NCBI RefSeq assembly: GCF_003053725.1 | Contig: NZ_QAYC01000001.1 | Coordinates: forward strand, 310,001 to 374,000 | Source: Rhodovulum kholense | Lineage (GTDB): Bacteria; Pseudomonadota; Alphaproteobacteria; Rhodobacterales; Rhodobacteraceae | Reading direction: 5' to 3' | DNA length: 64,000 nucleotides | Part shown: piece by piece, positions 1,165 to 15,607 of the stretch | How positions within the stretch are numbered: the stretch's first letter is position 1 | How the letters are laid out: each line of letters opens with the position of its first letter | Made by a program: the position numbers and the translations under genes | The notes under the pieces: generated by a model | Databases searched by the model: none | What the model was told of the DNA's origin: nothing | Seen by the model: the letters and a program-made list of their open reading frames with translations, nothing else

Positions 1165-1174
1165 TGGTATACCA
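1165..1174. promoter_or_regulatory. Putative GntR operator (TGGTATACCA) upstream of the dehydratase gene
   Basis: Perfect 10-bp palindrome TGGTATACCA, 134 bases before the ATG at 1309 and about 140 bases from the azlC start. The same core occurs twice in the divergent promoter of the GntR regulator at 12745-12758 and 12857-12868. FCD-type GntR proteins bind short palindromes of this kind. The inference is that the regulator at 12935 also controls this promoter. Confidence 0.65.
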
Positions 1175-1308
1175 GATCGGAATGCTGTGCCAAGGGCCGC
1201 CCGGGGTCTGGCCGCGCGGGACGCTGCGGCACCGCCCCGAAGCGGCGCAGGCCAGACGCCTCAGCGGTCGCAGACAGACGGCTGCCCGGCGGCAAGCGGA
1301 GGAAAGGC

Positions 1309-3090
1309 ATGAGCGACACGCGCGCGAACAAGCGGTTCCGGTCTCAGGAATGGTTCGACAATCCCAACAACCCCGGCATGACCGCGCTGTATGTCGAGCG
1401 CTATCAGAACCAGACCTTCACCCGGGGCGAGCTGCAATCGGGCCGCCCGGTGATCGGCATCGCCAATAGCGGGTCGGATCTGGTGCCCTGCAACAAGATC
1501 CACGTCTTCCTGATGGACCGGATCAAGGCGGGCATCCGCGAGGCGGGCGGCGTGCCGATGGAATTTCCGGTCCATCCGCTGCAGGAGACCGGCAAGCGGC
1601 CGACGGCGGCGCTCGACCGCAACCTCGCCTATCTGGGGCTGGTCGAGATCCTGCATGGCTATCCGCTGGACGGGGTGGTGCTGACCACCGGCTGCGACAA
1701 GACCACGCCCGCGCTGCTGATGGGGGCGGCGACGGTCGACATTCCGGCGATTGCGCTCAATGGCGGACCGATGCTCGACGGCTGGTGGAAGGGCAAGCGC
1801 GCGGGTTCGGGCACCATCGTCTGGGAAAGCCGGCGCCTGCTGGCCGAGGGCAAGATCGACTATGACGAGTTCATGGATCGGGTCTGTTCCTCGGCGCCCT
1901 CGCTGGGGCATTGCAACACCATGGGTACGGCCTCGACGATGAACGCGATGGCCGAGGCGCTGGGCATGAGCCTGACCGGCAATGCCGCGATCCCCGCGCC
2001 CTTCCGCGAGCGGATGGCAATGGCCTACGAGACCGGCAAGCGGATCGTGCAGATGGTGCTGGACGATCTGAAACCCTCCGACATCCTGACCCGCGCGGCC
2101 TTCGAGAATGCCATCGTCGTCAACAGCGCCATCGGCGGCTCGACCAATGCGCCGCCGCATCTGCAGGCGATCGCGCGGCATGCGGGGGTCGAGCTGGACG
2201 TGACCGACTGGGAGACCATCGGCCATGACGTGCCGCTTCTGGTCAACATGCAGCCCGCGGGCGAATACCTGGGCGAGAGCTTCTTCCGGGCGGGCGGCGT
2301 GCCCGCGGTGATGGCCGAGCTGGCCCGGGCCGGAAGGCTGCACGTGGGCGCGATGACCGCGACCGGCAGGACCCTGGCCGAGAACCTCGAGGGGGTCCGG
2401 TCCGCCGACCCGGACGTGATCGCGCCCTATGACGCGCCCTTGCGGACGCAGGCCGGGTTCAAGGTGCTTTCGGGCAATCTGTTCGCTTCGGCGCTGATGA
2501 AGACCTCGGTGATTTCCGACGAGTTCCGCGCGCGCTTCCTGTCCGAGCCCGGCCGCGAGGGGGTGCATGAGGCCCGCGCCGTGGTCTTCGAGGGCCCCGA
2601 GGATTACCACGCCCGGATCAACGACCCCGAACTTGAGATCGACGAAAGCGCGATGCTTTTCATCCGCAATGTGGGCTGCGTCGGGTATCCGGGCTCGGCC
2701 GAGGTGGTGAACATGCAGCCGCCGGACGCGCTGGTGAAGAAGGGCGTCCGGCATCTGCCGACGGTCGGGGACGGGCGGCAGTCGGGGACCTCGGAAAGTC
2801 CCTCGATCCTGAACGCCTCGCCCGAGGCGGTGGTGGGGGGCGGGCTGGCTTTCCTGAAGACGGGCGACCGGGTGCGGCTGGACCTGAACGCCTCGCGGCT
2901 AGATGCGCTGGTCGATGAGGCGGAGTGGGAGCTGAGGCGCGAGGCCTGGGAGCCGCCCGAGATCGTGAGCCAGACCCCCTGGGAAGAGATCTACCGTGCC
3001 AATGTCGGCCAGCTGGCCGATGGCGGCTGTCTGGAACTGGCCACGGCCTATCGGCGGATCGCCCGCGATCTGCCGCGCGACAACCACTGA
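1309..3090 (+). CDS. xylD: IlvD/Edd-family sugar-acid dehydratase, D-xylonate dehydratase type
   Basis: Cytoplasmic Fe-S dehydratase that removes water from a sugar acid to give a 2-keto-3-deoxy acid. The 593-residue product follows the Caulobacter xylonate dehydratase pattern closely, as recalled: start RFRSQEWFDNPNNPGMTALY, similar length, and end near the motif LGDGRQSGT-type (here VGDGRQSGTSESPSILNASP). The three cluster-ligand cysteines are Cys61 (VPCNK), Cys129 (TTGCDKTTP) and Cys202 (GHCNTMGTAST). The ATG at 1309 has a good GGAGGAAAGG ribosome site; the longer upstream frame is not credible. It is followed seven bases later by an SDR gene. Exact substrate (xylonate, arabinonate, fuconate or galactonate) cannot be read from the sequence. 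Confidence 0.88.
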   Translation: MSDTRANKRFRSQEWFDNPNNPGMTALYVERYQNQTFTRGELQSGRPVIGIANSGSDLVPCNKIHVFLMDRIKAGIREAGGVPMEFPVHPLQETGKRPTAALDRNLAYLGLVEILHGYPLDGVVLTTGCDKTTPALLMGAATVDIPAIALNGGPMLDGWWKGKRAGSGTIVWESRRLLAEGKIDYDEFMDRVCSSAPSLGHCNTMGTASTMNAMAEALGMSLTGNAAIPAPFRERMAMAYETGKRIVQMVLDDLKPSDILTRAAFENAIVVNSAIGGSTNAPPHLQAIARHAGVELDVTDWETIGHDVPLLVNMQPAGEYLGESFFRAGGVPAVMAELARAGRLHVGAMTATGRTLAENLEGVRSADPDVIAPYDAPLRTQAGFKVLSGNLFASALMKTSVISDEFRARFLSEPGREGVHEARAVVFEGPEDYHARINDPELEIDESAMLFIRNVGCVGYPGSAEVVNMQPPDALVKKGVRHLPTVGDGRQSGTSESPSILNASPEAVVGGGLAFLKTGDRVRLDLNASRLDALVDEAEWELRREAWEPPEIVSQTPWEEIYRANVGQLADGGCLELATAYRRIARDLPRDNH

Positions 3091-3097
3091 GGCAGGC

Positions 3098-3835
3098 ATG
3101 GCGCGCAGCATCATCATCACCGGGGCCGGGCGGGGCATCGGCCGGGCGACCGCGCTGGCCTTTCTGGAGGCGGGCTGGCGGGTTGGACTGGCCGGGCGCG
3201 GGATTGCGGCGCTGGAGGCCGTGGCCGAGGGGCGGCCGGGCGCGCTGGTGCTGACCTGCGACGTGACCGACGAGGCTTCGGTCGAGGTTGCCTTCGACCG
3301 GGCGATGGCGGCCTGGGGGCGGATCGACGTTCTGTTCAACAATGCAGGCGTTTCGGTGCCGGGGGCGCCGGTTGACGAGATCGCGGTCGAGGACTGGCGG
3401 CGCTGCATCGAGGTGAACCTGACCGGCAGTTTTCTTTGCGCCCGGGCGGCCTTCGCCCGGATGCGGCGACAGGACCCGCCGGGCGGTCGGATCATCAATA
3501 ACGGGTCGGTCTCGGCCCATGTGCCACGCTGGGGCTCGGTGCCCTATACCGCCTCGAAACACGCGATCACCGGGCTGACACGGTCGCTGGCGCTGGACGG
3601 GCGGGCCCATGGCATCGCCTGTGGGCAGATCGATATCGGCAATGCCCGGACCGACATGGCCGAGACCATGACCCGGGGCGTGCCGCAGGCCGACGGGAGC
3701 ATTGCGGTCGAGCCGGTGATGGATGTGGCCCATGTGGCCGCGACGGTGCTGTTCATGGCAGGGCTGCCGCTTGAGGCCAATGTGCCCTTCCTGACGGTGA
3801 TGGCGACGACGATGCCTTATATCGGCCGGGGCTGA
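3098..3835 (+). CDS. Short-chain dehydrogenase/reductase
   Basis: NAD(P)-dependent oxidoreductase of 245 residues, second gene after the sugar-acid dehydratase and probably cotranscribed (seven-base gap). The Rossmann motif TGAGRGIG is at residues 8-15, NNAG near 83, and the catalytic Ser followed by YTASK near residue 150. The ending lacks the usual GG-x-x loop and reads FLTVMATTMPYIGRG. Presumably oxidises or reduces an alcohol or keto group in the sugar-acid pathway; the substrate is unknown. Confidence 0.8.
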   Translation: MARSIIITGAGRGIGRATALAFLEAGWRVGLAGRGIAALEAVAEGRPGALVLTCDVTDEASVEVAFDRAMAAWGRIDVLFNNAGVSVPGAPVDEIAVEDWRRCIEVNLTGSFLCARAAFARMRRQDPPGGRIINNGSVSAHVPRWGSVPYTASKHAITGLTRSLALDGRAHGIACGQIDIGNARTDMAETMTRGVPQADGSIAVEPVMDVAHVAATVLFMAGLPLEANVPFLTVMATTMPYIGRG

Positions 3836-3837
3836 GG

Positions 3838-5030
3838 TTATCCCGGTTTCGTCCCGCTGGCGCGGGCCGACCCGCCGGGGGCTTTGCCCCCGGACCCCCA
3901 GGGTATTTCTGCCAAGAAGAAGGCTTGGCCCAGGTCGCGCGGGGCCCAGGCGGCCAGCGCATCGCGGTCGATCTCGATCCCGAGACCGGGGCCGGTGGGA
4001 TGGCGACGCGGCCCGCCTCGAGCAGGACAGGCGTCTTCACGATCTCGGCGAGGAACGGATTTCCGGTGCGGTCGAGGTCGAGCCAGGGATCGTTCGGCGC
4101 ATGGCGCCGGGGCACCGGTGGCAGCAGCGCCAGCATTCGCAGCGAAGCGGCCAGGTGGACGCCGGGTCCCCAGACATGGGCGACGACGCGGATGCCTTCG
4201 GTTTCGGCGCAGGCCGCGATCCTGCGCATTTCGGTCAGCCCGCCGCAGCCGGTCACGTCGGGTTGCAGGATGTCGATGGCACCGGCGCGGATCGCCTGCG
4301 GATGGGCGTGGCGGGTGTGCCAGGTCTCGCCGCCCGCGACCGGGATCGGCTGGCCGCGCCGGACCTCGGCATAGGCACCGAGATGTTCGGGCAGGACCGG
4401 TTCCTCGAACCAGGCGATGTCGTATCGGGCGGCGGCGCGCCCGAGCCGGATCGCTTCGATCGCGTCATGGCCGTGATTGGTGTCGATCATCAGCGGGCGC
4501 GTTCCGAGGATCTGGCGCGCGGTGCGGATCGCGTCGAGATCGGCGTCATGGCCGAAGACGGTCTTGATCGTGGCGGCAGTGAAGCCCTCGGCCCGTGCGC
4601 GGTGGAGGTCTGCGCCAGGCGCGTCGATCCGGTCGCAGAGGCCGGGACGGAGGTCCGGTGGGCGCCGCCCGCCAGCGCGTGGACCGGCACCCCGTAATGC
4701 CGCCCGGCAATGTCCCCGAGCGCGATGTCGAGGGCCGATTGCGCGGTGACGCTCGGCCGCGCTGGCCCTGGTCGCGGAACTGGGTCGCGAGCCGCGTCCA
4801 GAGCGGCTCGATCGCCAGGGGGGCGCGGCCGCTCAGCCAGGGCGCCATCTCGGCGATCACGGCGGCATCGGTGCGGGCGGGGCCGAGCGCCTCGCCCCAG
4901 CCGGGGGGCCGTCCTCGCAGACGATCTCGACGAGGCAGGCCCAGCGGTCGCGGAAGGTCGAGAAGGCGCTTTCGAAGCCGGAATCGAGCCTCTGGTGCAG
5001 AAGATGCGGGCGGATCTCGGCGATCTTCAC
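3838..5030 (-). pseudogene. Frameshifted D-galactarolactone cycloisomerase-like (enolase superfamily) gene
   Basis: Reading through the frames rebuilds a mandelate racemase/muconate lactonizing enzyme like Agrobacterium Gci: N-terminus KIAEIRPHLLHQRLDSGFES, then RDQGQRG, LMIDTNHGHDAIEA-type barrel strand, DIAWFEEPVLPEHLGAYAEV, PIPVAGGETWH, DILQPDVTGCGG, HVWGPGV and GPGLGIEIDRDAL. At least four frame changes are needed, near 4905 (in a run of six G), 4755, 4598 and 3995. About nine residues also seem to be missing after the SVPASATG segment, and the first Lys of the K-x-K catalytic motif reads Thr (TIK). The GTG start at 5030 overlaps the upstream transporter stop (GTGA). Most likely a decaying gene; clustered sequencing errors are the alternative. 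The end runs into a palindromic repeat. Confidence 0.8.
3875..3893. repeat. Palindromic GC repeat (CCGGGGGC-TTT-GCCCCCGG)
   Basis: Perfect 8-bp stem with a three-base loop, followed by GGACCCCCAGGGTATTTCTG and CCAAGAAGAAGG. From memory this hairpin plus tail is a common intergenic repeat in Rhodobacteraceae chromosomes. It sits where the SDR gene (ends 3835) meets the 3' end of the broken cycloisomerase gene, whose last codons are made of repeat sequence. It may act as a two-way terminator. Confidence 0.6.
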
Positions 5031-5932
5031 GGTCCCGATCGCTTCGCACCGCGCAGCTGCGCCCGTTCGCGGCGCCAGATGTAAAGTCCCGAGGCGATGA
5101 TGATGGCGCCGCCGCAAAGCGTCCAGACCGTGGGCCAGGTGTCGAAGACGAGGATGCCCGCCAGCGCCGCGAGGAAAACCTGAAGATAGACGACAGGCGC
5201 CAGCAGCGAGGCATCGGCCAGCCGGTGGGCCTCGGTCGCGGCGATATGGCCGGCGGCGCCGAAGGCCCCGATCAGCAGGAAGACCGTCCAGTCGGTGCCG
5301 CCCTCGGGCCAGACCCAGCCGCCCGGAACGAAGGGCAGGATCGCCAGGGCCGCAAGCCCCGCCGACCAGATCTGCTGGGTCGAGATCGCCTCGATCCCGG
5401 CCAGTATCCGGGTCAGCACGAAGTAAAGCGAGGCCAGGGTCAGCGCCCCGAGGCTCAGCAGCATCGCCGGGTGGAAGGCCGCGCCCCAGGGCTGCATCAC
5501 CACCGCGACGCCCAGAAAGCCCGTGCAGACCGCCGCGATCCGGCGCAGCCCGACCCGTTCGCCCAGCATCGGGATCGCCAGCAGCGTCACCGCGATGGGG
5601 CCCGCGAACATGATCGTGGTCGTCACCGTGATCGGCAGGTATTTCAGCGCCGCGAAATTGCAGACCGTGCTGCCCAGCAGGAAGACCGACCGCAGCACCT
5701 GACGCACCGGGCTGTTCGACCGCAGCGCCGCCAGCCCCTCGCGCGGCAGGAAGACCACCAGCGCCAGCAGGAAATGGATCAGATAGCGCGCGAAGACCAC
5801 CTGCAGCGCGGGCAGCCCGGCGAGGATCAGCCATTTCGCCGAGCTGTCGATGCAGGTGAAGAAGGCGACCGCCAGTGCCATGGCCAGCACCCCGGTCAGC
5901 CTGCGATCCTCGCGCGGACGTCCGATCCCCAT
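5027..5932 (-). CDS. DMT-superfamily (EamA) membrane transporter
   Basis: 301-residue inner-membrane protein with about ten hydrophobic segments forming two EamA repeats; the first begins GVLAMALAVAFFTCIDSSAK and the second near MLLSLGALTLASLYFVLTRI. Such proteins export or import small metabolites; the substrate is not predictable. It lies six bases after the SDR gene at 5939 and overlaps the broken cycloisomerase start, so it belongs to the long minus-strand sugar-acid operon. Confidence 0.82.
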   Translation of the reverse strand: MGIGRPREDRRLTGVLAMALAVAFFTCIDSSAKWLILAGLPALQVVFARYLIHFLLALVVFLPREGLAALRSNSPVRQVLRSVFLLGSTVCNFAALKYLPITVTTTIMFAGPIAVTLLAIPMLGERVGLRRIAAVCTGFLGVAVVMQPWGAAFHPAMLLSLGALTLASLYFVLTRILAGIEAISTQQIWSAGLAALAILPFVPGGWVWPEGGTDWTVFLLIGAFGAAGHIAATEAHRLADASLLAPVVYLQVFLAALAGILVFDTWPTVWTLCGGAIIIASGLYIWRRERAQLRGAKRSGP

Positions 5933-5938
5933 CGGGGC

Positions 5939-6661
5939 TCAGCCCACCGCCCAGCCGCCGTCGATCACATGGGTCTGGCCGGTGGTGAAGGCGCTTTCGT
6001 CCGACGCGAGATAGACCGCGAGATGGGCGATTTCGGCCGGGGTGCCGATCCGGCCCATCGGCTGGCGGGCGACGAAGGCGCGGTGGGCGGCCTCGTAATC
6101 GCCCATGGCGCGCAGGCGGTCGTGCAGCGAGGGGCTGTCGACCGTGCCCGGGCAGATCGCGTTCACCCGGATGCCGCGCGTGACATAGTCAAGCGCGACC
6201 GATTTCGTCATGCCGATCACCGCCGCCTTGGTCGCGCCGTAGACAAAGCGGTTGGGGGCCGCGACCAGCGACGAGACGACCGAGGCGATATTGACGATCG
6301 AGCCATGGCCGCGCTTGAGCATGCCCGGCAGTGCGGCCTGCATCGCATGGAACTGCGCGCGGACATTCAGCGCGACGGCGAAGTCGAACTCGTCGTCGGT
6401 GGCCTCGAGCAGCGTGCCCGCATGCACGATGCCCGCGCAATTGACCAGCACCTCGGGATCGGCCGCGCGGATCGCCTCGGTCAGGGCCGCCTTGTCGGTC
6501 ACGTCCAGCCCGAAGGTTTCGGCCGTGAGACCCGTCAGCAGCGTCGGGTCGAGATCGGTCGCGACCACGATTGCGCCTTCCGCCGCGAAGGCCTCGGCGA
6601 TGGCCCGGCCGATGCCCTGACCCGCGGCCGTCACGAAGGCGCGTTTTCCGTCCAGTCTCAT
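5939..6661 (-). CDS. SDR oxidoreductase, 2-keto-3-deoxy-L-fuconate dehydrogenase-like
   Basis: 240 residues with cofactor motif TAAGQGIG (11-18), NCAG (74-77), Ser127, Tyr141 and Lys145 (YGATK), and the C-terminal DGGW. The pattern YGATKAAVIGMTKSVALDY and NAICPGTVDSPSLHDR matches the DHRS6/KDF-dehydrogenase branch, which oxidises 2-keto-3-deoxy-L-fuconate to the 2,4-diketo acid in non-phosphorylative L-fucose breakdown. That product is the substrate of an FAH-family hydrolase, and one is encoded at 13660. The start overlaps the upstream dehydrogenase stop (ATGA). Activity on fuconate rather than a related deoxy acid is inference. Confidence 0.82.
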   Translation of the reverse strand: MRLDGKRAFVTAAGQGIGRAIAEAFAAEGAIVVATDLDPTLLTGLTAETFGLDVTDKAALTEAIRAADPEVLVNCAGIVHAGTLLEATDDEFDFAVALNVRAQFHAMQAALPGMLKRGHGSIVNIASVVSSLVAAPNRFVYGATKAAVIGMTKSVALDYVTRGIRVNAICPGTVDSPSLHDRLRAMGDYEAAHRAFVARQPMGRIGTPAEIAHLAVYLASDESAFTTGQTHVIDGGWAVG

Positions 6662-7551
6662 GTCTGTCCCTTTTTTGAATGGGTTGCGATCCAGTCGGTC
6701 ATCTGCGGCACCATCAGATCGCCCGCGCCCCCGTCGCGGGCGGCACGCAGGGCGGCATCGGTCGCGCCCGAGATCGGGCTTTCGCGTCCGAGATCCTCGG
6801 TCATGCGCCGGTAATAACCCACATCCTTGGCGGCATTCGCGACCGAGAAGGCCAGGTCGATCCGGCCTTCGACGGCATAGGCGCGGATGAAATCCATCAT
6901 CCCCGATTTCAGCGGCCCGGCCGACATCACCGAATAAAGCGCCTCGCGCTCGATCCCGGCGGCATCGGCCATGGCGAAGGCCTCGGACATGGCGCAGGCG
7001 GTGGTCATGGCAAAGAAGTTGTTGATCAGCTTGATCGTGTGCCCGTTGCCGAGCTTGCCCAGATGAAAGACGTTCTCGCCGAGGATGTCGAGCACCGGCC
7101 TGACCCGGTCATAGGCGGCGCGCTCGCCCGCGCACATGATGTTCAGCAGCCCCTCGCGCGCCTGGGCGGGGGTGCGCCCCAGCGGCGCATCCAGATAGAC
7201 GGCGCCCTTTTCGGCCAGATCGGCGCCGATCTTCAGCGTCGAGGCGGGCAGCGAGGTGCCGAAGTCGATCACCACCTGGCCCTCGCGCGCGCCTGCAAGG
7301 ATGCCGTCGGGGCCGTAGATCCGGGCCTCGACCTGATCCGAGGTCCCCATGCACAGCATCACGATGTCGCTTTCCTCGGCCAGCGCCCGGCCCGAGGCGG
7401 CCTCGGTCGCGCCCTGCGCCAGCGCCTCGTCGATCCCCGAGCGGTCGCGATGGCCCAGCACCGTCAGTTCCATCCCGTTCTTCTGCAGGCATTCGACCAT
7501 GGCCCGGCCCATGAGGCCGAGCCCGACGAAGCCGATCCTCGGATCATCCAT
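6658..7551 (-). CDS. NAD(P)-dependent beta-hydroxyacid dehydrogenase (GarR/3-hydroxyisobutyrate dehydrogenase family)
   Basis: 297 residues: N-terminal Rossmann fold with GLGLMG at 10-15 and the all-helical C-terminal domain with the catalytic Lys174 in GHTIKLINNFF. Family members include tartronate semialdehyde reductase GarR and 3-hydroxyisobutyrate dehydrogenase. Placed between the UxaA-like dehydratase (24-base gap) and the SDR (four-base overlap), it most likely reduces a semialdehyde or oxidises a hydroxy acid made by this pathway. Substrate not assigned. Confidence 0.83.
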   Translation of the reverse strand: MDDPRIGFVGLGLMGRAMVECLQKNGMELTVLGHRDRSGIDEALAQGATEAASGRALAEESDIVMLCMGTSDQVEARIYGPDGILAGAREGQVVIDFGTSLPASTLKIGADLAEKGAVYLDAPLGRTPAQAREGLLNIMCAGERAAYDRVRPVLDILGENVFHLGKLGNGHTIKLINNFFAMTTACAMSEAFAMADAAGIEREALYSVMSAGPLKSGMMDFIRAYAVEGRIDLAFSVANAAKDVGYYRRMTEDLGRESPISGATDAALRAARDGGAGDLMVPQMTDWIATHSKKGQT

Positions 7552-7575
7552 ATCCCTCTCCCGTTCCGGTCCCGT

Positions 7576-9066
7576 TCACATCACTGCGCCGATCTGCCAG
7601 GGCACGAATTCATGATCTCCGAGCCCCTGCGCCTCGGATTTCGTTCTCTCGCCGCTCGCGACCCGCAACCAAAGATCGTAGATCTCGCGCCCGACCTCCT
7701 CGACTGTGGCGCTGCCCTCAAGGATGCGGCCCGCATTCACGTCCATGTCCTCGGTCATCCGGGTGAACATCGCGCTGTTGGTGGCGATCTTGACGGTGGG
7801 GGCGGGTTTCGAGCCGAAGGCCGAGCCGCGGCCAGTGGTGAAGGCGACAAGGGTGCATCCCGAGGCGATCTGGCCTGTCACCGAGGCCGGGTCATAGCCG
7901 GGGCTGTCCATGAAGACGAAGCCCGTCTCGGCGATGGGCTCGGCATAGAGCAGCACGGCGGTCAGGGGCGTCGTGCCGCCCTTGGCGGCCGCGCCCAGCG
8001 ATTTTTCAAGGATGGTGGTCAGCCCGCCGCGCTTGTTGCCGGGGCTCGGGTTGTTGTCCATCGAGCCGCGGTTGCGCGCGGTATAGTCCTCCCACCAGCG
8101 GATCAGGCCGATCAGCTTTTCGCCGGTGGCGCGGTCCTTGGCGCGGGCGGTCAGCAGATGTTCGGCGCCGTAGATTTCAGGCGTTTCCGCCAGAACGCCG
8201 GTGCCGCCCTGGGCGACCAGCAGGTCGCAGGCATGGCCCAAGGCCGGGTTCGCGGTGATCCCCGACCAAGCATCCGAGCCGCCGCATTGCAGCGCGACGG
8301 TCAGATCCGAGGTCGGGCAGGGCGTCCGGCGCGCGGCATCGACCAGCGGCAGCATCGCCTCGATCCGCGCGATGCCCTCCTCGACGGTGCGGCGCAGCCC
8401 GCCCGTGTCCTGGATCGTCATGTGCTGGAACAAGGGCCCCGGGGTCAGGCCGAAAGCCTCGATCAGCCAGTCGATCTGCATCGTCTCGCAGCCCAGCCCG
8501 GCCATCAGCACGCCGCCGACATTGGGGTTGCGGGCATAGCCCCAGATCACCCGTTGCAGCGCCTCGAAGCCCTCGCCCGATCCGGCCATGCCGCAGCCGG
8601 TGCCATGAACGAAGGCCGCGACGCCGTCGACATTCGGGTAGGGCGCCAGCCTTTCTGGGGTGAAATGCGCGGCGATCCGGTGCGCGGCGGTGGCCGAGCA
8701 GTTGACCGAGGTCAGCACCGCGATGAAGTTCCGCGTGCCGACCCGGCCGGTCGGGCGGCGATAGCCCATGAAGCGGTCCGCCGCCGGTGCGGGCGCGGCC
8801 GGGCGCAGGTTGGTCGCGAAGGCATAGTCGGCCCCGACCGCGCGGAAGGCCAGATTGTGGCTATGGACATGGGCGCCGGGCGCGATGTCTTCGGCGGCAT
8901 AGCCGATCACCTGGGCGTATTTCAGGACCGGCGCGCCCTTGGCGATCGCCTCGGTCGCCATCTTGTGGCCCATCGGGATGACCTCTGTCGCGCCCGCCTC
9001 GCCCGGGGAAAGCGCCGTGGCGGCGGTGACCACATTGTCGGCCTCGGACAGTCTGACGGTCTTCAT
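7576..9066 (-). CDS. UxaA/GarD-family sugar-acid dehydratase (altronate dehydratase-like)
   Basis: 496-residue cytoplasmic dehydratase with the N-terminal SAF domain carrying HVHSHN (66-71) and the large C-terminal UxaA domain with SVNCSATAAHRIAAHF, GLGCETMQ and QCGGSDAWSGITANPALG. Family enzymes dehydrate altronate or galactarate; a split UxaA in the Campylobacter jejuni fucose locus is reported to act on L-fuconate. Its neighbours here (KDF dehydrogenase-like SDR and FAH hydrolase) fit that third option. It starts 43 bases after the TRAP permease stop and is probably cotranscribed. Confidence 0.85.
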   Translation of the reverse strand: MKTVRLSEADNVVTAATALSPGEAGATEVIPMGHKMATEAIAKGAPVLKYAQVIGYAAEDIAPGAHVHSHNLAFRAVGADYAFATNLRPAAPAPAADRFMGYRRPTGRVGTRNFIAVLTSVNCSATAAHRIAAHFTPERLAPYPNVDGVAAFVHGTGCGMAGSGEGFEALQRVIWGYARNPNVGGVLMAGLGCETMQIDWLIEAFGLTPGPLFQHMTIQDTGGLRRTVEEGIARIEAMLPLVDAARRTPCPTSDLTVALQCGGSDAWSGITANPALGHACDLLVAQGGTGVLAETPEIYGAEHLLTARAKDRATGEKLIGLIRWWEDYTARNRGSMDNNPSPGNKRGGLTTILEKSLGAAAKGGTTPLTAVLLYAEPIAETGFVFMDSPGYDPASVTGQIASGCTLVAFTTGRGSAFGSKPAPTVKIATNSAMFTRMTEDMDVNAGRILEGSATVEEVGREIYDLWLRVASGERTKSEAQGLGDHEFVPWQIGAVM

Positions 9067-9109
9067 GGCGTCTCCTCCGGGCCGGTCCCGCAGATGTGCG
9101 GCGCCCCCC

Positions 9110-10738
9110 TCACAGGAACAGCGTCACGATGGGCGGCCAGATCAGCAGGACCGACAAAGCGAGGATCTGCAAGCCGATGAAGGGCAGGAAGCCGCTGAAG
9201 ATGTCGGTCAGCGAAATCTCGGGCGGGGCCACCGATTTCAGATAGAAGGCGGCGGGGCCGAAGGGCGGCGAGAGAAAGCTCACCTGCATGTTCATGCAGA
9301 AGACGACGCCGAACCAGATCGCCACATGCCGGGGGTCGAGCTGGCCAAGCACGCCGATCTCGGCCGGGGGCAGCTTCAGCACGATGGGCAGGAAGACCGG
9401 CATGATCAGCAGCACGATGCCGACCCAGTCCATGAACATGCCCATGACGAGGAAGATCAGCATCATGACGAGGATGATGCCCATGGTCGGCATGTCCGCC
9501 CCGACGATCAGGTTCGCGACATAGTTCGGCCCGCCCGCCAGCGTATAGGCCGCGGCCAGCGCGGCCGCGCCGATGGTCACCCAGATGATGGTGCCGGTCG
9601 AGCGCAGCGTGCGCATCAGGCTGTCCCAGACGATCTCGAAGGTCATCTCGCGCCGGATCAGCCCGATCGCGAAGACCGCGACGACGCCCATGCCCGCGGC
9701 CTCGGTGATGCCGGTGATGCCGCCATAGATCGAGCCCAGAACCACCCCGATCACCACTGTCGGCGCGACCAGTCCCTTGCCCATCTGCCAGCCCGCGCGG
9801 GTCCGCTCTGGCCCGACGGCCAGATGGATCGCGGCCAGCGCCAGCGCCAGCGCGCCCACCAGCCAGGGAATGTCCGACACCATGCCAAGGAAAATGGGCG
9901 CGACACCCTCTTGCACGCGATTGGCGCCGGTCGCCGTCAGGAAGGCCACCCGCACCAGCAGCGCGCCCGCGATCCACAGCGTCATGCGGGCAAGGAAGCC
10001 CAGAAACATCAGCGCCTTCTCGCGCCCGGCCGGGTCGCCCGGATCGGCCGGTGGCAGGGGGGCGAGGCCGGGGTTCAGCCGCGTCCGCACCAGAATGTAG
10101 ATCAGGAAGAACGAGGCCAGCATGAAGCCCGGCAGGAAGGACGCGGTGAACAGCGCCTTGATCGAGGTCTCGGTCACGAGCCCGTAGAAGATCAGCACGA
10201 TCGAGGGCGGGATCATGGTGCCCAGCGAGCCCGAGGCGCAGATCGTGCCGATGGCGAGGTTCCGGTCATAGCCCAGCCGCAGCATCTGCGGGAGTGCGAT
10301 CAGGCCCAGCAGCACGACCTCGCCGCCGATGATCCCCGACATGGCCGCCATGATCACCGCCATGATCGAGGTCACGACCGCGATGCCGCCCCGGGTCCGC
10401 GACAGCCACATGTTCAGCGAGGAATACATGTCGCGCGCGATGCCGGAGCGTTCCAGCAGCGCCGCCATGAAGATGAAAAGCGGGATCGAGATCAGCACGT
10501 AATTCGTCATCTGCCGGTAGATCGCCTGACCCAGCACCGCGAAAGGGCCGCGCCCGAAATCGCGAAACAGCAGATCGGGGCCGAATTTCATCACCAGCGT
10601 CGCGACCGCCAGAAAGGCCGAGGCAAAGCCCAGCGGCATTCCAATGGCCAGCAGAGCGAACATTCCCAGCAGCAGGATCAGGCTGATCGTCCCGATATCC
10701 GAGACCTTCATCCAGCCGAAGTCGAGGATCAGCTCCAT
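9110..10738 (-). CDS. dctM: TRAP transporter large permease (DctM)
   Basis: 542-residue membrane protein of the DctM family, the ion-driven transport subunit of a tripartite TRAP carrier. It has many hydrophobic helices with the family blocks LISIPLFIFMAALLERSGIA, GEVVLLGLIALPQML, GSLGTMIPPSIVLIFYGLVT and FMDWVGIVLLIMPVFLPI. It is longer than the usual 425-430 residues because of an insert near residues 230-310 containing two extra hydrophobic segments. It starts one base after the dctQ stop. Imports the acid degraded by the downstream enzymes. Confidence 0.9.
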   Translation of the reverse strand: MELILDFGWMKVSDIGTISLILLLGMFALLAIGMPLGFASAFLAVATLVMKFGPDLLFRDFGRGPFAVLGQAIYRQMTNYVLISIPLFIFMAALLERSGIARDMYSSLNMWLSRTRGGIAVVTSIMAVIMAAMSGIIGGEVVLLGLIALPQMLRLGYDRNLAIGTICASGSLGTMIPPSIVLIFYGLVTETSIKALFTASFLPGFMLASFFLIYILVRTRLNPGLAPLPPADPGDPAGREKALMFLGFLARMTLWIAGALLVRVAFLTATGANRVQEGVAPIFLGMVSDIPWLVGALALALAAIHLAVGPERTRAGWQMGKGLVAPTVVIGVVLGSIYGGITGITEAAGMGVVAVFAIGLIRREMTFEIVWDSLMRTLRSTGTIIWVTIGAAALAAAYTLAGGPNYVANLIVGADMPTMGIILVMMLIFLVMGMFMDWVGIVLLIMPVFLPIVLKLPPAEIGVLGQLDPRHVAIWFGVVFCMNMQVSFLSPPFGPAAFYLKSVAPPEISLTDIFSGFLPFIGLQILALSVLLIWPPIVTLFL

Positions 10739-10739
10739 C

Positions 10740-11549
10740 TCAGTCCTCCAGCGTCCGGCGGATATTGGCGATCTCGGTCTCGTCGATATCGTCGAGCGCG
10801 GAATGGTATTCGGGCGGGCGGTTCCAGTCGGCGATCAGGTTCGACAACGCCTGCAGCGCGACCAGCCCGATGACGATCAGGATGGCGGGCTTGATGGTGG
10901 CCGGAAGCGGCGGGTCCCAGGCGGTGCCGAAGGTTTCCATCCGGGCGAATTTGGTGACCGCCTCGCCATAGCCGCCCCAGAGAAGGCAGAGGAAGAAGCC
11001 CCAGATCAGCCCGACCGAGACCACGTCGGCCGCCTTCTGCAACGGCCGGGGCAGCAGGTCGTAGATCACATAGATGCGGATATGGCTGCGCTGCTGCATG
11101 GCATAGAGCCCGGCCAGCAGGAAGATGAACCCGGCGATCCACAGCGACAGTTCATTGGCCCAGAGCGTCGGTTTTTCAAAGACATAGCGCGCAACGACCT
11201 CGTAGATCATCACCACGACGACGCAGATGATGCCGATCATCGCCAGCCGGGACATCACGAGTGCCACGATGTCCATCGGCCCGGTCGGCGGGCGTTCGAT
11301 GGCGCCTTTCCGGTCCGACAGGTGCAGTGCCGCGAACAGCATCGCGGCCGCGAGGCTGCCCAGCATCAGCGGCACCTCGGGCCGACCCTCGGGGCGCAGC
11401 ATCTCGAACATGCCGACCGGTTCGGCGCGCCAGACCTGGCCCGCGATCAGCCAGAGCGCCATCGCGGCGGCAGCCGCGCCCGAGACGATCATCGCTGCTT
11501 TCACCGCCGGGCCAAGAGGCCCCAGCCAGACGCCGTCCTTTTCCTGCAT
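10740..11549 (-). CDS. dctQ: TRAP transporter small permease (DctQ)
   Basis: 269 residues from the ATG at 11549, which has a GGAGGGAG ribosome site; the frame is open 39 bases further but without a better start. The C-terminal 170 residues are the DctQ four-helix unit (LSLWIAGFIFLLAGLYAMQQ and RSHIRIYVIYDLLPRPLQK). The extra N-terminal part adds two hydrophobic helices (around residues 12-34 and 54-70), making this a long DctQ. It follows a strong intergenic hairpin after dctP. Confidence 0.85.
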   Translation of the reverse strand: MQEKDGVWLGPLGPAVKAAMIVSGAAAAAMALWLIAGQVWRAEPVGMFEMLRPEGRPEVPLMLGSLAAAMLFAALHLSDRKGAIERPPTGPMDIVALVMSRLAMIGIICVVVVMIYEVVARYVFEKPTLWANELSLWIAGFIFLLAGLYAMQQRSHIRIYVIYDLLPRPLQKAADVVSVGLIWGFFLCLLWGGYGEAVTKFARMETFGTAWDPPLPATIKPAILIVIGLVALQALSNLIADWNRPPEYHSALDDIDETEIANIRRTLED

Positions 11550-11573
11550 GCCGTTCCGTCTCCCTCCGGATCG

Positions 11574-11602
11574 GCGCGCCCCGGCCATGGCCCGGGGCGC
11601 GC
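11574..11602. terminator. Intergenic stem-loop between dctP and dctQ
   Basis: An 11-bp perfect inverted repeat GCGCGCCCCGG / CCGGGGCGCGC (11574-11584 and 11592-11602) with a seven-base loop, right after the dctP stop at 11615. There is no T-run on the minus strand, so it is more likely an mRNA-stabilising or partial-attenuation hairpin, giving more binding protein than permease, than a full terminator. Confidence 0.65.
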
Positions 11603-11614
11603 GGAATGGCGGAC

Positions 11615-12631
11615 CTAGTCGGCGATCAGGCCAAGCTGGGTCAGATAGGCCTTGTGGCTGTCGACCAGCGCCTTGGCCTCGGGCGATTTGTCGGCCCAGA
11701 CGTCCCAGGCGGCCTGAGCTGCCTTGCGGAAGGTGGCGCGGTCCTCGGCCGACCAGTCATGCAGCGTCACGCCCTTTTCGGTCAGCCGCGCCGCGGCCTC
11801 GGCATTGGCCTTCTCGAAATACAGCGCAGACCGCAGCGCGAGCTTTTCCATCGCCACTTCGACGATCCGCCGCTGCTGCTCGGTCAGCCCGTCCCAGACT
11901 GCCTTGTTGCAGGCCAGATGGTCGGACGGCATCGAATGGAAGCCCGGATAGGTGGCGTGGTTCGCCAGATCGAACAGCCCGATCGACTCGTCGTTCGAAA
12001 GCCCCGAATAGTCGGTGCCCTCGATGATGCCGGTCTCCATCGCGGTGAAGACCTCGGTGAAGTCCATCACGATGGGCGAGGCGCCGAGATTGGCGAAGAT
12101 CTCGGTTTCCATCCCCGGGGGCGAGCGGAATTTCCAGTCCTTCAGATCGTCCGGCCCGGCAATGGGCGTCGAGGAGACCAGCGATTCCTGGCCATAGACC
12201 CACCAGCCGATCAGCTGCATGCCGAATTCGTTGTAAAGCGTCTGTGCCTGTTCCAGCCCGCCGCCGTAGTAAAGCCAGGACAGCTGCTGATAGGGCGTGT
12301 CATAGCCGCCCATGATGTCGCCCACGAACTGGAATCCCGGGTTCTTGCCGGTCTGGTAGGCGCCGCCGGTCATGTCGCAGTCGAGAATGCCGTTGGCGGC
12401 GGCGTCGAAGGTCTCGACCGTCGCGACCACCGACGAGGCATAGAACATCTCGATGTCGATGGACCCGCCCGACATCGTCTCGACATCCTCGACGAACTGG
12501 GCGGCCAGTTTGCCCGAGGTCTGTTCGGGGTTGTAATGGGTCTGGATGCGCAGCGTCACGTCCTGGGCCGCCGCAGGCAGAGCTGCCCCAGCGGCAAGCG
12601 CCACCGCGGCCAGCATCGGTCTCGGATTCAT
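11615..12631 (-). CDS. dctP: TRAP transporter periplasmic solute-binding protein (DctP)
   Basis: 338 residues with a Sec signal peptide (cleavage after ALPAAAQ, about residue 22) and the DctP fold: KDWKFRSPPGMETEIFANLG, FTEVFTAMETGIIEGTDYSG and the C-terminal WADKSPEAKALVDSHKAYL. The conserved Arg (KFRSPPG), which in this family binds the substrate carboxylate, is present, fitting an acidic sugar ligand. First gene of the minus-strand operon, divergent from the GntR gene, with an operator-like palindrome 114 bases upstream. Confidence 0.9.
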   Translation of the reverse strand: MNPRPMLAAVALAAGAALPAAAQDVTLRIQTHYNPEQTSGKLAAQFVEDVETMSGGSIDIEMFYASSVVATVETFDAAANGILDCDMTGGAYQTGKNPGFQFVGDIMGGYDTPYQQLSWLYYGGGLEQAQTLYNEFGMQLIGWWVYGQESLVSSTPIAGPDDLKDWKFRSPPGMETEIFANLGASPIVMDFTEVFTAMETGIIEGTDYSGLSNDESIGLFDLANHATYPGFHSMPSDHLACNKAVWDGLTEQQRRIVEVAMEKLALRSALYFEKANAEAAARLTEKGVTLHDWSAEDRATFRKAAQAAWDVWADKSPEAKALVDSHKAYLTQLGLIAD

Positions 12632-12744
12632 GGTGTCTCCTCCCTGGATGGGGCTCCCCCCGGTTTGCGGGCCGTCTCTCCCCCGGCTCGCGATGGTGCC
12701 TTGTGAGGTGAGGCTAGCCGAAGCGCCACGGCCCGATCAACCAT

Positions 12745-12758
12745 TTTGGTATACCAAA
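12745..12758. promoter_or_regulatory. GntR operator 1 (TTTGGTATACCAAA)
   Basis: Perfect 14-bp palindrome located 114 bases before the dctP ATG and 177 bases before the gntR ATG. Shares the 12-bp core TTGGTATACCAA with operator 2. Confidence 0.7.
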
Positions 12759-12856
12759 TGGGCGAAAGGTGCTTCTGGCAAGGTCCGCAGCGGCCGGCAG
12801 GGGGGCAGGGGCGCGACACGGCGTCGGACCTGGTGGCCTCGACAAGTCCGGTTTCG

Positions 12857-12868
12857 TTGGTATACCAA
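12857..12868. promoter_or_regulatory. GntR operator 2 (TTGGTATACCAA)
   Basis: Perfect 12-bp palindrome 66 bases before the gntR ATG. Its centre lies about 111 bases from operator 1, which would permit looping by a dimeric or tetrameric regulator across the divergent promoter. Confidence 0.7.
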
Positions 12869-12934
12869 ATGGAAAGACAGGGGCCACGCGCCCGCTCCCG
12901 GCCGGACGGCCGGGGCCGAAGGAGCAGTCGCGAC

Positions 12935-13618
12935 ATGGCGGAACAGACCCGCGCCGAGGACATCGCGAACCGGTTGCGCCGCAGCATCCTGCACGGGACG
13001 CTGCCCCCCGGCGCGCCGATCAAGGAGCGCGACACCGCCGCCGAGATGGGGGTCAGCCGCACGCCGATGCGCGAGGCGATCCGGATCATCGCCAATGAGG
13101 GGCTGGTGCTCCTGCGTCCGGCGCGCAGCCCCGTCGTCGCCAGCCCGACGCTGGCCGAGGTCCGGGACGCCATCGAGGTCCTGTCGGCGCTCGAGATGCT
13201 GTCGGTCCGGCTGGCCTGCGACCGGGCGAGCGAGGCCGATCTGGACGAGATCCGGCGGCTGGAACGCGAGCTTTCGGACAATTTCACGACGCTTGACGAC
13301 ATCGACCGGTTCGAGGTGGACATGGCCTTTCACCTCGCGATCGTCCGGGCCGCACATAATCCGGCGCTGGCCGAGACGCACCAATCCTATCTGGGGCGGC
13401 TTTGGCGGGCGCGGTTCCTGTCGGCGCGCCGCAAAAGCTCGCGCGACAGCGTGGTCAGCCAGCACCGGGCCATCGTCGCGGGGCTCGAGGCCCGCGACAG
13501 CGCGGCGGCGCAGGCCAGCCTGCAGGCGCATCTGGACCGGCTTCTGGCCAATGTGCGCGCCTTTTTCGAAACCGGGACCGAGACTGAAATCGGGCCGGAC
13601 CCCTCCGACGCGGACTGA
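12935..13618 (+). CDS. GntR-family (FCD subfamily) transcriptional regulator
   Basis: 227-residue DNA-binding regulator. The winged helix-turn-helix is at about residues 5-65 (LRRSILHGTLPPGAPIKERD, VSRTPMREAIRIIANEGLV) and the all-helical FCD ligand domain follows, with the metal/ligand residues in DRFEVDMAFHLAIVRAAHN and SQHRAIVAGLEARD. The ATG at 12935 has an AAGGAG ribosome site; the open frame upstream crosses operator 2 and is not coding. Divergent from dctP and followed 41 bases later by the FAH hydrolase. Probably represses the local operons until a sugar acid binds. Confidence 0.88.
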   Translation: MAEQTRAEDIANRLRRSILHGTLPPGAPIKERDTAAEMGVSRTPMREAIRIIANEGLVLLRPARSPVVASPTLAEVRDAIEVLSALEMLSVRLACDRASEADLDEIRRLERELSDNFTTLDDIDRFEVDMAFHLAIVRAAHNPALAETHQSYLGRLWRARFLSARRKSSRDSVVSQHRAIVAGLEARDSAAAQASLQAHLDRLLANVRAFFETGTETEIGPDPSDAD

Positions 13619-13659: not shown

Positions 13660-14505
13660 ATGAAACTCTTGCGCTATGGCGAGGCGGGGTCGGAAAAGAC
13701 CGGGCTTCTGGATGCGGCGGGCCGGGTCCGGGACCTGTCGGCCCATGTGCCCGACCTGTCGGGGGCGGCGGTCGCCATCGCGGCGCTCGACCGGCTGAGG
13801 GGACTCGACCCCGAGACGCTGCCGCTGGTCGAGGCGCCGGGCCGCATCGGCGCCTGCCTGTCGCGGGTGCCGAACTTCTTCTGCGTCGGGCTCAACTACG
13901 CGCGCCACGCCGCCGAAACCGGGGCCGAGCCGCCGAAAGAGCCGATCCTCTTCTCGAAGGCCAGTTCGGCGCTGTCGGGGCCCTATGACCCGGTGGTGAT
14001 CCCGCGCGACTCGGTCAAGAGCGACTGGGAGGTCGAGCTGGGCGTGGTGATCGGGCGCGACACGCTTTACGTGTCCGAGGCCGAGGCGCTGGACCATGTG
14101 GCGGGCTATTGCGTCATCAACGACGTGTCGGAACGCGCCTTCCAGATCGAGCGCGGCGGCCAGTGGGTCAAGGGCAAGTCGGCGCCGACCTTTGGCCCGA
14201 CCGGCCCCTGGCTGGTGACCGCCGACGAGGTGGCCGACCCGCAGGCGCTGGGGCTGAGCCTCGCGCTGAACGGCCAGACCGTGCAGGACAGCCGCACCGA
14301 CGACATGATCTTCTCGGTGGCCGAGATCGTGTCCTACATGAGCCGCTTCATGGCTTTGCAGCCCGGCGACATCATCGCGACCGGCACGCCGTCTGGCGTC
14401 GGCATGGGCATGAAGCCGCAACGCTTCCTGCGCCCCGGCGACGTGATGGAGCTGACGGTCGAGGGGCTCGGGACCCAGAGGCAGGACGTGGTGGCGGCGG
14501 ACTGA
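13660..14505 (+). CDS. Fumarylacetoacetate hydrolase-family protein, 2,4-diketo-3-deoxy-sugar acid hydrolase-like
   Basis: 281 residues of the FAH fold: CVGLNYARHAAETGAEPPKE, metal-binding Glu residues in KSDWEVELGVVIG, GYCVINDVSERAFQ, KGKSAPTFGPTGPWLVT and the ending MALQPGDIIATGTPSGVGMG. This branch includes the hydrolases that split 2,4-diketo-3-deoxy-L-fuconate or -rhamnonate into pyruvate and a hydroxy acid. With the KDF-dehydrogenase-like SDR (5939) and UxaA-like dehydratase (7576), it would complete a non-phosphorylative deoxy-hexose-acid route. Cotranscribed with the regulator; ribosome site GGGAG precedes the ATG. Confidence 0.85.
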   Translation: MKLLRYGEAGSEKTGLLDAAGRVRDLSAHVPDLSGAAVAIAALDRLRGLDPETLPLVEAPGRIGACLSRVPNFFCVGLNYARHAAETGAEPPKEPILFSKASSALSGPYDPVVIPRDSVKSDWEVELGVVIGRDTLYVSEAEALDHVAGYCVINDVSERAFQIERGGQWVKGKSAPTFGPTGPWLVTADEVADPQALGLSLALNGQTVQDSRTDDMIFSVAEIVSYMSRFMALQPGDIIATGTPSGVGMGMKPQRFLRPGDVMELTVEGLGTQRQDVVAAD

Positions 14506-14686: not shown

Positions 14687-15607
14687 TCAGGTATGCGCGG
14701 CCTCGCTCGGCTCCAGGCGGCCGGTCCGCTCATGGGCCGCGATCAGCCCCGCCAGGGTCAGCCGGTCGCCCGCCAGCGCCTCGACATCGGCGCCCTGGGA
14801 TGCCAGCGCGCTGGCATAAAGCTCCGAGACCCGCTCGGTGCCCAGCACCGCGACCGGCCGGTTGTGCCACCAGGTGCGCATGGCGCCGATATCGCAGCCG
14901 ACCATCAGCCCCGACAGTCGCGCCCGGGCAAGGCCCGGGGTCGGGTTGCTCAGCAGCGCCGAGGCACGGATCCCGAAGATCGAACTGACGATGGTTTCGG
15001 GGTGGCGCGTGCTTTCGTCGACCGCGTTGCGGAAGGCGGCCTCGTCCCAGCTGTCGTCCATCATGTGGCGCAGGACCGATTGCCGGGCGATCAGCCCGTA
15101 GATCTCGCCGGTCATCATGGTGCGGAAGCCCTGCACGATGCCGTGGCGCAGCCGCACCCATTTGCCATGCAGGCCGGGCATGCACAGCACCCCGTCGAAG
15201 GACGCGCGATCCAGCAGGAAGCCCGCGATCCGGGTCTCCTCGCCGCGCATGACATCGGGCGGATCGATCTGGCCAAGCCCCGGCAGGATGCCGACCGAGA
15301 TCCGCGAATCGAGGCTTGGGGCGGGCATCGGGGGCGCGGCATGCGGGGCGCAGGGCACCATCTCGTGCGGCACCTCGACCCAGCCCTTGCGGGCGCCCGC
15401 CTGACCGCAGATCAGGACCGGCGTCACCTCGTCGGGCGGCAGCATCCCGCTTGCGAGGGTCAGCAGCGCGGGTTCGAAGTCGCGTGGTCCAAGCCGCGAG
15501 ACCCCCTGATCCGAGGCGCCTTCGGTCAGGACCTTGCGTCCCGCCATCGCCCAGATCCTCAGCGAGGACGGGCCCCAGGCGGCGGCGATCCAGCGCGGCG
15601 CGGTCAT
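14687..15607 (-). CDS. dgoK: 2-dehydro-3-deoxygalactonokinase
   Basis: 306-residue kinase of the DgoK family, which phosphorylates 2-keto-3-deoxy-galactonate before aldol cleavage. Recognised by LICGQAGARKGWVEVPHEMV, DVMRGEETRIAGFL, VLCMPGLHGKWVRL and GLMVGCDIGAMRTWW. The start reads MTAPRWIAAAWGPSSLRIWA, where the usual phosphate-loop D-x-G-T-S is altered to AWGPSS. No DgoA aldolase is encoded nearby, so the aldolase must be elsewhere. It is 124 bases after galM and probably the last gene of the second sugar-acid operon. Confidence 0.87.
   Translation of the reverse strand: MTAPRWIAAAWGPSSLRIWAMAGRKVLTEGASDQGVSRLGPRDFEPALLTLASGMLPPDEVTPVLICGQAGARKGWVEVPHEMVPCAPHAAPPMPAPSLDSRISVGILPGLGQIDPPDVMRGEETRIAGFLLDRASFDGVLCMPGLHGKWVRLRHGIVQGFRTMMTGEIYGLIARQSVLRHMMDDSWDEAAFRNAVDESTRHPETIVSSIFGIRASALLSNPTPGLARARLSGLMVGCDIGAMRTWWHNRPVAVLGTERVSELYASALASQGADVEALAGDRLTLAGLIAAHERTGRLEPSEAAHT

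Follow-up and report, generated by a model that had tools for sequence, protein, structure and literature searches.

A recurrent palindrome as the probable operator of a GntR/FCD-regulated sugar-acid regulon in Rhodovulum kholense and related bacteria

We studied a 64,000-nucleotide stretch of the Rhodovulum kholense genome (RefSeq assembly GCF_003053725.1, contig NZ_QAYC01000001.1, our C1, positions 310001-374000; hereafter the window), in which the short palindrome TGGTATACCA recurs in front of genes predicted to serve sugar-acid use. A gene for a GntR-family regulator (gntR) diverges here from a transporter operon that runs in the order DctP-DctQ-DctM-UxaA/GarD-HIBADH-like-SDR_C-EamA, where HIBADH stands for 3-hydroxyisobutyrate dehydrogenase and SDR for short-chain dehydrogenase. 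A FAH-family hydrolase gene directly follows gntR, and an IlvD/Edd-family dehydratase gene heads a second operon. The palindromes are called operators below in the sense of predicted binding sites. Counted from the first letter of the window, the features are:

Left of the window: short-chain dehydrogenase SDR_A, with an operator 41 bp ahead of the start codon; a KdgK-like kinase gene diverges from it
Left of the window, after SDR_A: the KdgK-like kinase (below cut-off) and a D-erythronate-dehydrogenase-like gene (above cut-off)
Left of the window, minus strand: aminotransferase and 2-hydroxyacid dehydrogenase, operator 43 bp before the aminotransferase
Left of the window, after that pair: an AzlD-like open reading frame (by position only; no NCBIfam match), then AzlC
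1165..1174: operator TGGTATACCA, between azlC and ilvD, 134 bp before the IlvD start (pattern scan, relatives)
1309..3090, plus: IlvD/Edd-family sugar-acid dehydratase (NF009560, 1006 bits, cut-off 684)
3098..3835, plus: short-chain dehydrogenase SDR_B (domain match)
3753..4490, minus: longest open piece of a broken mandelate-racemase/enolase-family dehydratase gene (several frames)
5027..5932, minus: EamA-family permease (domain match)
5939..6661, minus: short-chain dehydrogenase SDR_C (domain match)
6658..7551, minus: NAD_binding_2/HIBADH-like reductase (no NCBIfam cut-off reached)
7576..9066, minus: UxaA/GarD-family (altronate/galactarate-type) dehydratase (galactarate model, 372 bits, cut-off 731)
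9110..10738, minus: TRAP large permease DctM (238 bits, cut-off 268)
10740..11588, minus: TRAP small permease DctQ (operon position; weak YiaM match)
11615..12631, minus: TRAP solute-binding protein DctP (family and PDB matches)
12694..12703: possible decayed dctP-side operator TGGTGCCTTG, 53 bp before operator A (suggested by its position)
12745..12758: operator A, in the dctP-gntR intergenic region; perfect palindrome of 14 bp centred about 120 bp from the DctP start
12857..12868: operator B, in the dctP-gntR intergenic region; perfect palindrome of 12 bp centred about 72 bp from the GntR start
12935..13618, plus: GntR-family regulator with FCD effector domain, predicted to bind TGGTATACCA
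13660..14505, plus: FAH-family hydrolase, like 2,4-diketo-3-deoxy-L-rhamnonate hydrolase (393 bits, cut-off 500; 8gsr, 3.4e-86)

Exact matches to TGGTATACCA occur three times in the window (1165-1174, 12747-12756 and 12858-12867) and not once in 100 dinucleotide shuffles of it. Extended to perfect palindromes, the sites measure 10 bp (1165-1174), 14 bp (12745-12758) and 12 bp (12857-12868), exactly where an original prediction, made from the letters alone, had placed them. It had noticed no further copy in the window, and the pattern TTGGTATACCAA with up to two mismatches recovers the same three sites and no others. In the whole genome (4,458,411 bases in 51 contigs), allowing up to one mismatch to TTGGTATACCAA gives five sites, every one inside C1 305592-322868 (17.3 kb); two of them, at C1 305592 and C1 309909, lie just left of the window. 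The locus spans 17.3 kb and five operators, more than the 13 kb and three operators of the prediction. Sites with two mismatches number 12 and are dispersed over the whole genome. We rejected the site count alone as evidence: a reversed-pattern control gives 3 sites against 5 real ones at up to one mismatch, and 27 against 17 at up to two. The number of sites is unremarkable and their clustering is what stands out, the chance of five random sites sharing one 17.3-kb stretch being about 1e-9. Many copies unrelated to sugar genes, which would have spoken against a dedicated operator, were sought in this genome scan and not found.

The palindrome is also conserved together with the regulator. In a set of 61 genomes, ours plus 60 relatives, a GntR protein of 53-95% identity is encoded in eight of the relatives, the next best reaching 40%. 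Within the genus, the six genomes with an ortholog (our own included) hold 5, 8, 2, 5, 2 and 4 sites at up to one mismatch, and the ten without one hold 0, 2, 0, 0, 0, 0, 1, 0, 0 and 1. Across our genome and the eight relatives, the palindrome lies before IlvD in 9/9, between dctP and gntR in 9/9, before SDR_A in 8/9 and before the aminotransferase/hydroxyacid dehydrogenase pair or the hydroxyacid dehydrogenase in 7/9, the exceptions being genes not seen in the fetched stretch. Beyond these relatives, GTDB contigs were scanned with an alignment of the nine GntR proteins, and the best 80 of 586 confirmed matches were divided by rank into 49 loci with 42-69% GntR identity and 31 with 34-44%, ranges that overlap. 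Among these best 80, TGGTATACCA is present in 44 of the 49 top-ranked loci and in none of the 31 lower-ranked ones. It is the palindromic 10-mer present in most loci of the top-ranked group, with 91 copies there compared with 8 for the best other palindromic 10-mer of the same GC content. The 49 loci include contigs labelled Paracoccus, Salipiger, Roseivivax, Stappia, Donghicola, Pacificibacter and Pseudorhodobacter, together with metagenome bins labelled Oceanospirillaceae and Granulosicoccaceae. A chance origin of the pattern was rejected on the window shuffles, the clustering in the genome and this same-GC comparison. In 149 genomes of the family, the median number of core copies is 5 in the 22 genomes whose GntR is at least 47% identical (all 22 have at least two), 1.5 in the six with a GntR of 40-46%, and 1 in the 121 without a GntR match at 1e-40, 57 of which have zero. 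Given this co-occurrence of site and regulator across GTDB loci and family genomes, the 12935-13618 protein most likely binds all five sites, and the earlier proposal that a single regulator controls both arms of the locus is very likely correct.

Several observations weigh against this assignment. The difference in core count between the 22 and the 121 family genomes (p about 1e-13) is not a strict probability, as the genome samples partly overlap and are related by descent; no more than 19 candidates per genome were scored in the 149-genome comparison, and some orthologs may be missed. Nine of the 121 genomes without an ortholog have at least three core copies (G102 has 5, G175 has 7). In genomes of this kind the word may serve other proteins, or its copies may be due to chance; in G102 and G175 it may be the site of another regulator. 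The core is absent from 5 of the 49 ortholog loci (L102, L105, L133, L135 and L139), and the relative G003 has four of its eight one-mismatch sites outside the locus. A standard scan for sigma-70-like promoters across 12620-12945 of the window found none, leaving promoter overlap there unsupported. One could suppose that the palindrome is bound by a different protein, such as a GntR paralog or a global factor, and that the local GntR is a mere neighbour. At a threshold of 0.001, 15 additional GntR-like matches do turn up in our genome, and genomes lacking the ortholog can carry the core too. Nonetheless, the copy number tracks the ortholog, all 31 loci of the lower-ranked GntR proteins are free of the core, and distant one-mismatch copies are missing from our genome; we consider a different binding protein very improbable.

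The regulator itself fits the role. Both domains of the FadR/FCD subfamily of GntR proteins are found in it (PF00392, 51.3 bits, cut-off 27; PF07729, 93.7 bits, cut-off 24.3). None of its 11 NCBIfam matches reaches the cut-off, the best being PhnR with 88 of 271.5 bits, and it falls below the cut-offs of the named equivalogs and subfamilies PhnR, NanR, GlcC, LldR, UxuR and ExuR. Nine residues are invariant in all nine orthologs: E31, R32, R42, T43 and R46, together with D129, H133, H177 and H199. Placed by eye against the FadR sequence, R32, R42 and R46 correspond to the base-contacting Arg35, Arg45 and Arg49 of FadR (PMC4494728, Table 1). In the alignment to 6z74 (Atu1419), D129, H133, H177 and H199 fall on N137, H141, H192 and H214, respectively; these four Atu1419 residues are described as its zinc ligands (PMC7797058). 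D129, H133, H177 and H199 thus provide the Asp/Asn and three His of the metal-binding FCD subgroup, and a bound metal is predicted. Part of the FadR subfamily is reported to use TKGT/ACMA boxes with a 2-nt centre, the family range being 2-3 nt between GT and AC (PMC4494728). The operator TGGT-AT-ACCA fits these boxes with a 2-nt centre and would be a plausible target of the regulator.

Taken together, TGGTATACCA is very probably the operator of the GntR/FCD protein 12935-13618, which would govern one sugar-acid regulon with five operators. The sites, their clustering, their conservation and their co-occurrence with the regulator come from the computation; binding, repression, a metal and an effector belong to the model that follows. 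A GntR dimer would sit on each palindrome, with one winged helix per TGGTA half. The regulon would consist of SDR_A; the aminotransferase-hydroxyacid dehydrogenase pair; IlvD-SDR_B; TRAP-UxaA-HIBADH-SDR_C-EamA; and gntR-FAH, the last implying autoregulation. Without substrate the regulator might block these promoters, and a sugar acid or 2-keto-3-deoxy acid bound at the metal site D129/H133/H177/H199 might release it. The regulator probably acts as a repressor lifted by a sugar acid.

Food for further consideration is the pair of operators between dctP and gntR. Divergent dctP/gntR loci number 36, of which 31 have exactly two sites (at most one core mismatch) and five have one. The two sites lie 54-58 bp apart in 28 of the 31, 38 bp apart in L126, and 111 bp apart in the window and in G005. 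Spacing shows little relation to intergenic length in the 28 loci (r = -0.14; standard deviation of spacing 0.86 bp); r is -0.40 with L126 added and 0.77 over all 31, the latter driven by the two 111-bp loci. Conservation was measured on 14 rows with exactly 56 bp (17 minus three that share a genus with a kept row), two of them from the window's genus. The 46 bp between the operators carry a mean of 0.90 bits per column, compared with 0.24-0.25 in the flanks, and include the conserved blocks AcgctA.CgAaagC and tCGACAATCAAC, which we read tentatively as interlocked divergent promoters.

In the window, the 111-bp pair appears to be derived, the transporter-side operator having decayed and another having been gained. 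The DNA upstream of operator A is closer to the relatives' inter-operator DNA than that upstream of operator B in 22 of 28 comparisons. The two tie in 1, and A scores worse in 5, among them the comparison with G003, which is the nearest relative to keep the usual spacing. Mean similarity is 19.9 for A and 15.6 for B, with shuffles as good in 0/500 and 1/500 cases respectively, so B also keeps some of the element. A first test with six relatives was less clear (shuffles as good of 500: 120, 23, 0, 1, 2 and 14 for A; 25, 7, 40, 13, 27 and 61 for B). The supposed decayed operator at 12694 keeps 4 of 10 letters; if it is one, A would be the old gntR-side operator and B the addition. Tandem duplication was considered as the source of the 111-bp pair and found unsupported, shuffles being as good in 736/1000 cases for the upstream halves and 270/1000 for the downstream ones.

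How the paired operators work together can be read in more than one way. The original prediction had raised looping between them as a possibility, and a GntR tetramer might bridge A and B, or both and the 1165 site, as was proposed for Atu1419, an FCD regulator that forms tetramers and has a promoter region with two 10-bp palindromes (PMC7797058). In 28 of the 31 loci the distance stays near-fixed at 54-58 bp whatever the intergenic length; this would suit such a bridge, and fixed spacing is a pattern that PMC4494728 reads as cooperative pairs. However, at 10.5 bp per helical turn, 56 bp makes 5.3 turns and 111 bp makes 10.6, neither of them a whole number; spacing rises with intergenic length once the two 111-bp loci are counted; other pairs in the set are spaced 23, 38, 54 and 85 bp; and the inter-operator DNA is itself conserved, which interlocked promoters would explain. 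We consider looping unlikely, and the proposal found no support in a pair that is mostly 54-58 bp apart around conserved DNA and apparently derived where it measures 111 bp. We lean, with modest confidence, towards each operator acting alone on its own promoter, with the 56-bp spacing imposed by two overlapping divergent promoters. The conserved blocks can be read, in our interpretation, as -10/-35-like hexamers on both strands with spacers of about 17 bp, single sites precede other operons, and a loose scan of the window region gave four weak promoter candidates, including TCGACA-16-TATACC overlapping operator B. Yet the hexamers are weak, the stricter scan gave no promoter, and the window's own pair has lost the 56-bp geometry.

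A broader proposal, which we put forward as possible though somewhat doubtful, is that the dctP/gntR region is a fixed module of two TGGTATACCA operators 56 +/- 1-2 bp apart around a conserved 46-bp core, present in many Rhodobacterales genera. It would act as one switch that sets transporter against regulator via interlocked promoters and/or a higher-order GntR complex, and would have been broken and rebuilt as a 111-bp pair in the window genome and G005. If so, these two genomes, near relatives and both of the window's genus, would be a natural experiment in operator turnover.

Distances from operator to gene start are mostly 40-140 bp for DctP, GntR, IlvD, the aminotransferase and SDR_A, both sites of the pair being counted for DctP and GntR. 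For 22 of the core sites scanned, no window protein (at least 47% identity, aligned near its start) lies within 260 bp. The 12 open reading frames neighbouring these sites that were searched comprise an L-threonate dehydrogenase (above cut-off), an HIBADH-like reductase, two hydroxyacid dehydrogenases, an aldehyde dehydrogenase, two enolase-family dehydratases, a DHDPS-family protein, a DRL-type oxidoreductase, an FAH-family hydrolase, a TctC receptor and one LysR-type regulator. Most of them suit sugar-acid use; the LysR gene is neutral. G003 has a second DctP homolog (76%) adjoining an operator of its own (L079:10486 and 10764-11717). Paired cores also occur before IlvD, 54 bp apart in two Paracoccus loci and 85 bp in another (L104, L118 and L132), and at the aminotransferase/hydroxyacid dehydrogenase genes of L106, 23 bp apart. 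A CTGGTATACCAA site, whose form in our genome reads TTGGTGTACCAG on the other strand, stands shortly before a conserved open reading frame starting MTDTP in three genomes (L094:2849, L096:3260 and L009:1501), two of them without a GntR ortholog. This frame is presumably COQ9-like, and the site is perhaps that of another factor.

Regarding the substrate, the genes suggest a non-phosphorylative 2-keto-3-deoxy route that begins with an imported aldonate or keto acid and ends in pyruvate and a hydroxy acid. The TRAP transporter would bring in the aldonate or keto acid, the dehydratases would yield a 2-keto-3-deoxy acid, an SDR would oxidise it, and the FAH hydrolase would cleave the oxidised product to pyruvate and a hydroxy acid. 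The IlvD protein matches 5oyn (named IlvD/Edd dehydratase, 865 bits) and 7m3k (named galactonate dehydratase, 836 bits), and misses the cut-offs of the L-arabinonate equivalog (539 of 882) and the YjhG/YagF xylonate model (154 of 808). 5oyn is a xylonate dehydratase. The third palindrome does precede this operon, 134 bp before IlvD, as had been predicted; the accompanying name xylonate dehydratase is a nearest-structure label, 5oyn and 7m3k scoring about alike. Nearest structures are galactarate dehydratase (6u7l) for the UxaA protein, L-2,4-diketo-3-deoxyrhamnonate hydrolase (8gsr) for the FAH protein, and 4pe3 for DctP, followed by chains including ones named ketoacid-, lactate- and sorbitol/mannitol-binding. 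The family and PDB matches single out no one substrate.

At the end of the TRAP operon, the enolase-family sugar-acid dehydratase gene (about 3750-5020, minus strand) is disrupted across several frames. A homolog (64%) is present in G003, and the longest piece has no match between EamA and SDR_B in G005. The two arms had been predicted to converge at 3838; the plus arm does end at 3835, whereas the last intact minus-strand gene ends at 5027, with the broken gene between. After the FAH gene, on the opposite strand, the open reading frame 14687-15607 (minus) has no TGGTATACCA nearby and no NCBIfam match, and is presumably DgoK-like.

The system belongs to a known kind of arrangement, of which it is an unusually clear-cut example, common to many related bacteria. 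Atu1419 of Agrobacterium fabrum (FCD/VanR GntR; PDB 6z74, 6za0, 6za3, 6za7, 6zab) is likewise an FCD GntR protein. Several promoters of its pathway carry identical 10-bp palindromes, one promoter region having two of them, and its metal ligands align as described above. It differs in its operator (ATGTATACAT), in the 190 bp between its two operators, in its effector (methylene-tetrahydrofolate) and in its pathway (hydroxycinnamate degradation) (PMC7797058). The FadR-subfamily regulons with a 2-nt centre (GntR, HypR, HpxS, MdcY, PrpR and UxuR) share the TKGT/ACMA boxes, the GT-NN-AC spacing and a divergent transcription factor gene with one or two sites (PMC4494728). In NCBIfam the window regulator scores weakly (UxuR 32 of 442; ExuR, of a 3-nt group, 28 of 396). 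DgoR of Escherichia coli is also a GntR/FadR sugar-acid repressor with two inverted repeats, and its C-terminal domain has a Zn ion and a D-galactonate pocket (PMC12288454). It is placed among groups with a 3-nt operator centre (PMC4494728) and described as repressor of the dgo operon, and no DgoR model is among the window regulator's 11 NCBIfam matches. NanR of E. coli has the same half-site TGGTATAW and is the regulator's second-best NCBIfam match (67 bits, cut-off 260), but binds direct repeats instead of a palindrome (PMC4494728) and governs sialic acid metabolism (PMC8012715). UxuR and other sugar-acid reconstructions in Rhodobacteraceae (PMC5507952) likewise include a predicted GntR-controlled sugar-acid locus from the same family. 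There, UxuR adjoins UxaC and an ABC transporter; this locus description sets it apart, and identity with the window regulator is possible.

In the literature, TTGGTATACCAA matches two papers, none of the listed matches for TGGTATACCA is a bacterial regulon by title, GGTATACC together with GntR gave no match, and none of the other titles listed describes the regulon; RegPrecise or the supplements of PMC4494728 and PMC5507952 may hold an earlier description. The comparative support for this regulator-operator pair is very strong, and the literature searched gave no earlier description of it. Some 14-18 sugar-acid genes of the window's genome are predicted to be co-regulated, as are similar sets in its relatives, and catabolic genes otherwise known only by family would be linked to one pathway. 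Finally, the 56-bp pair, conserved in relatives but lost in the lineage of the window, opens operator spacing, cooperativity and turnover to direct test.

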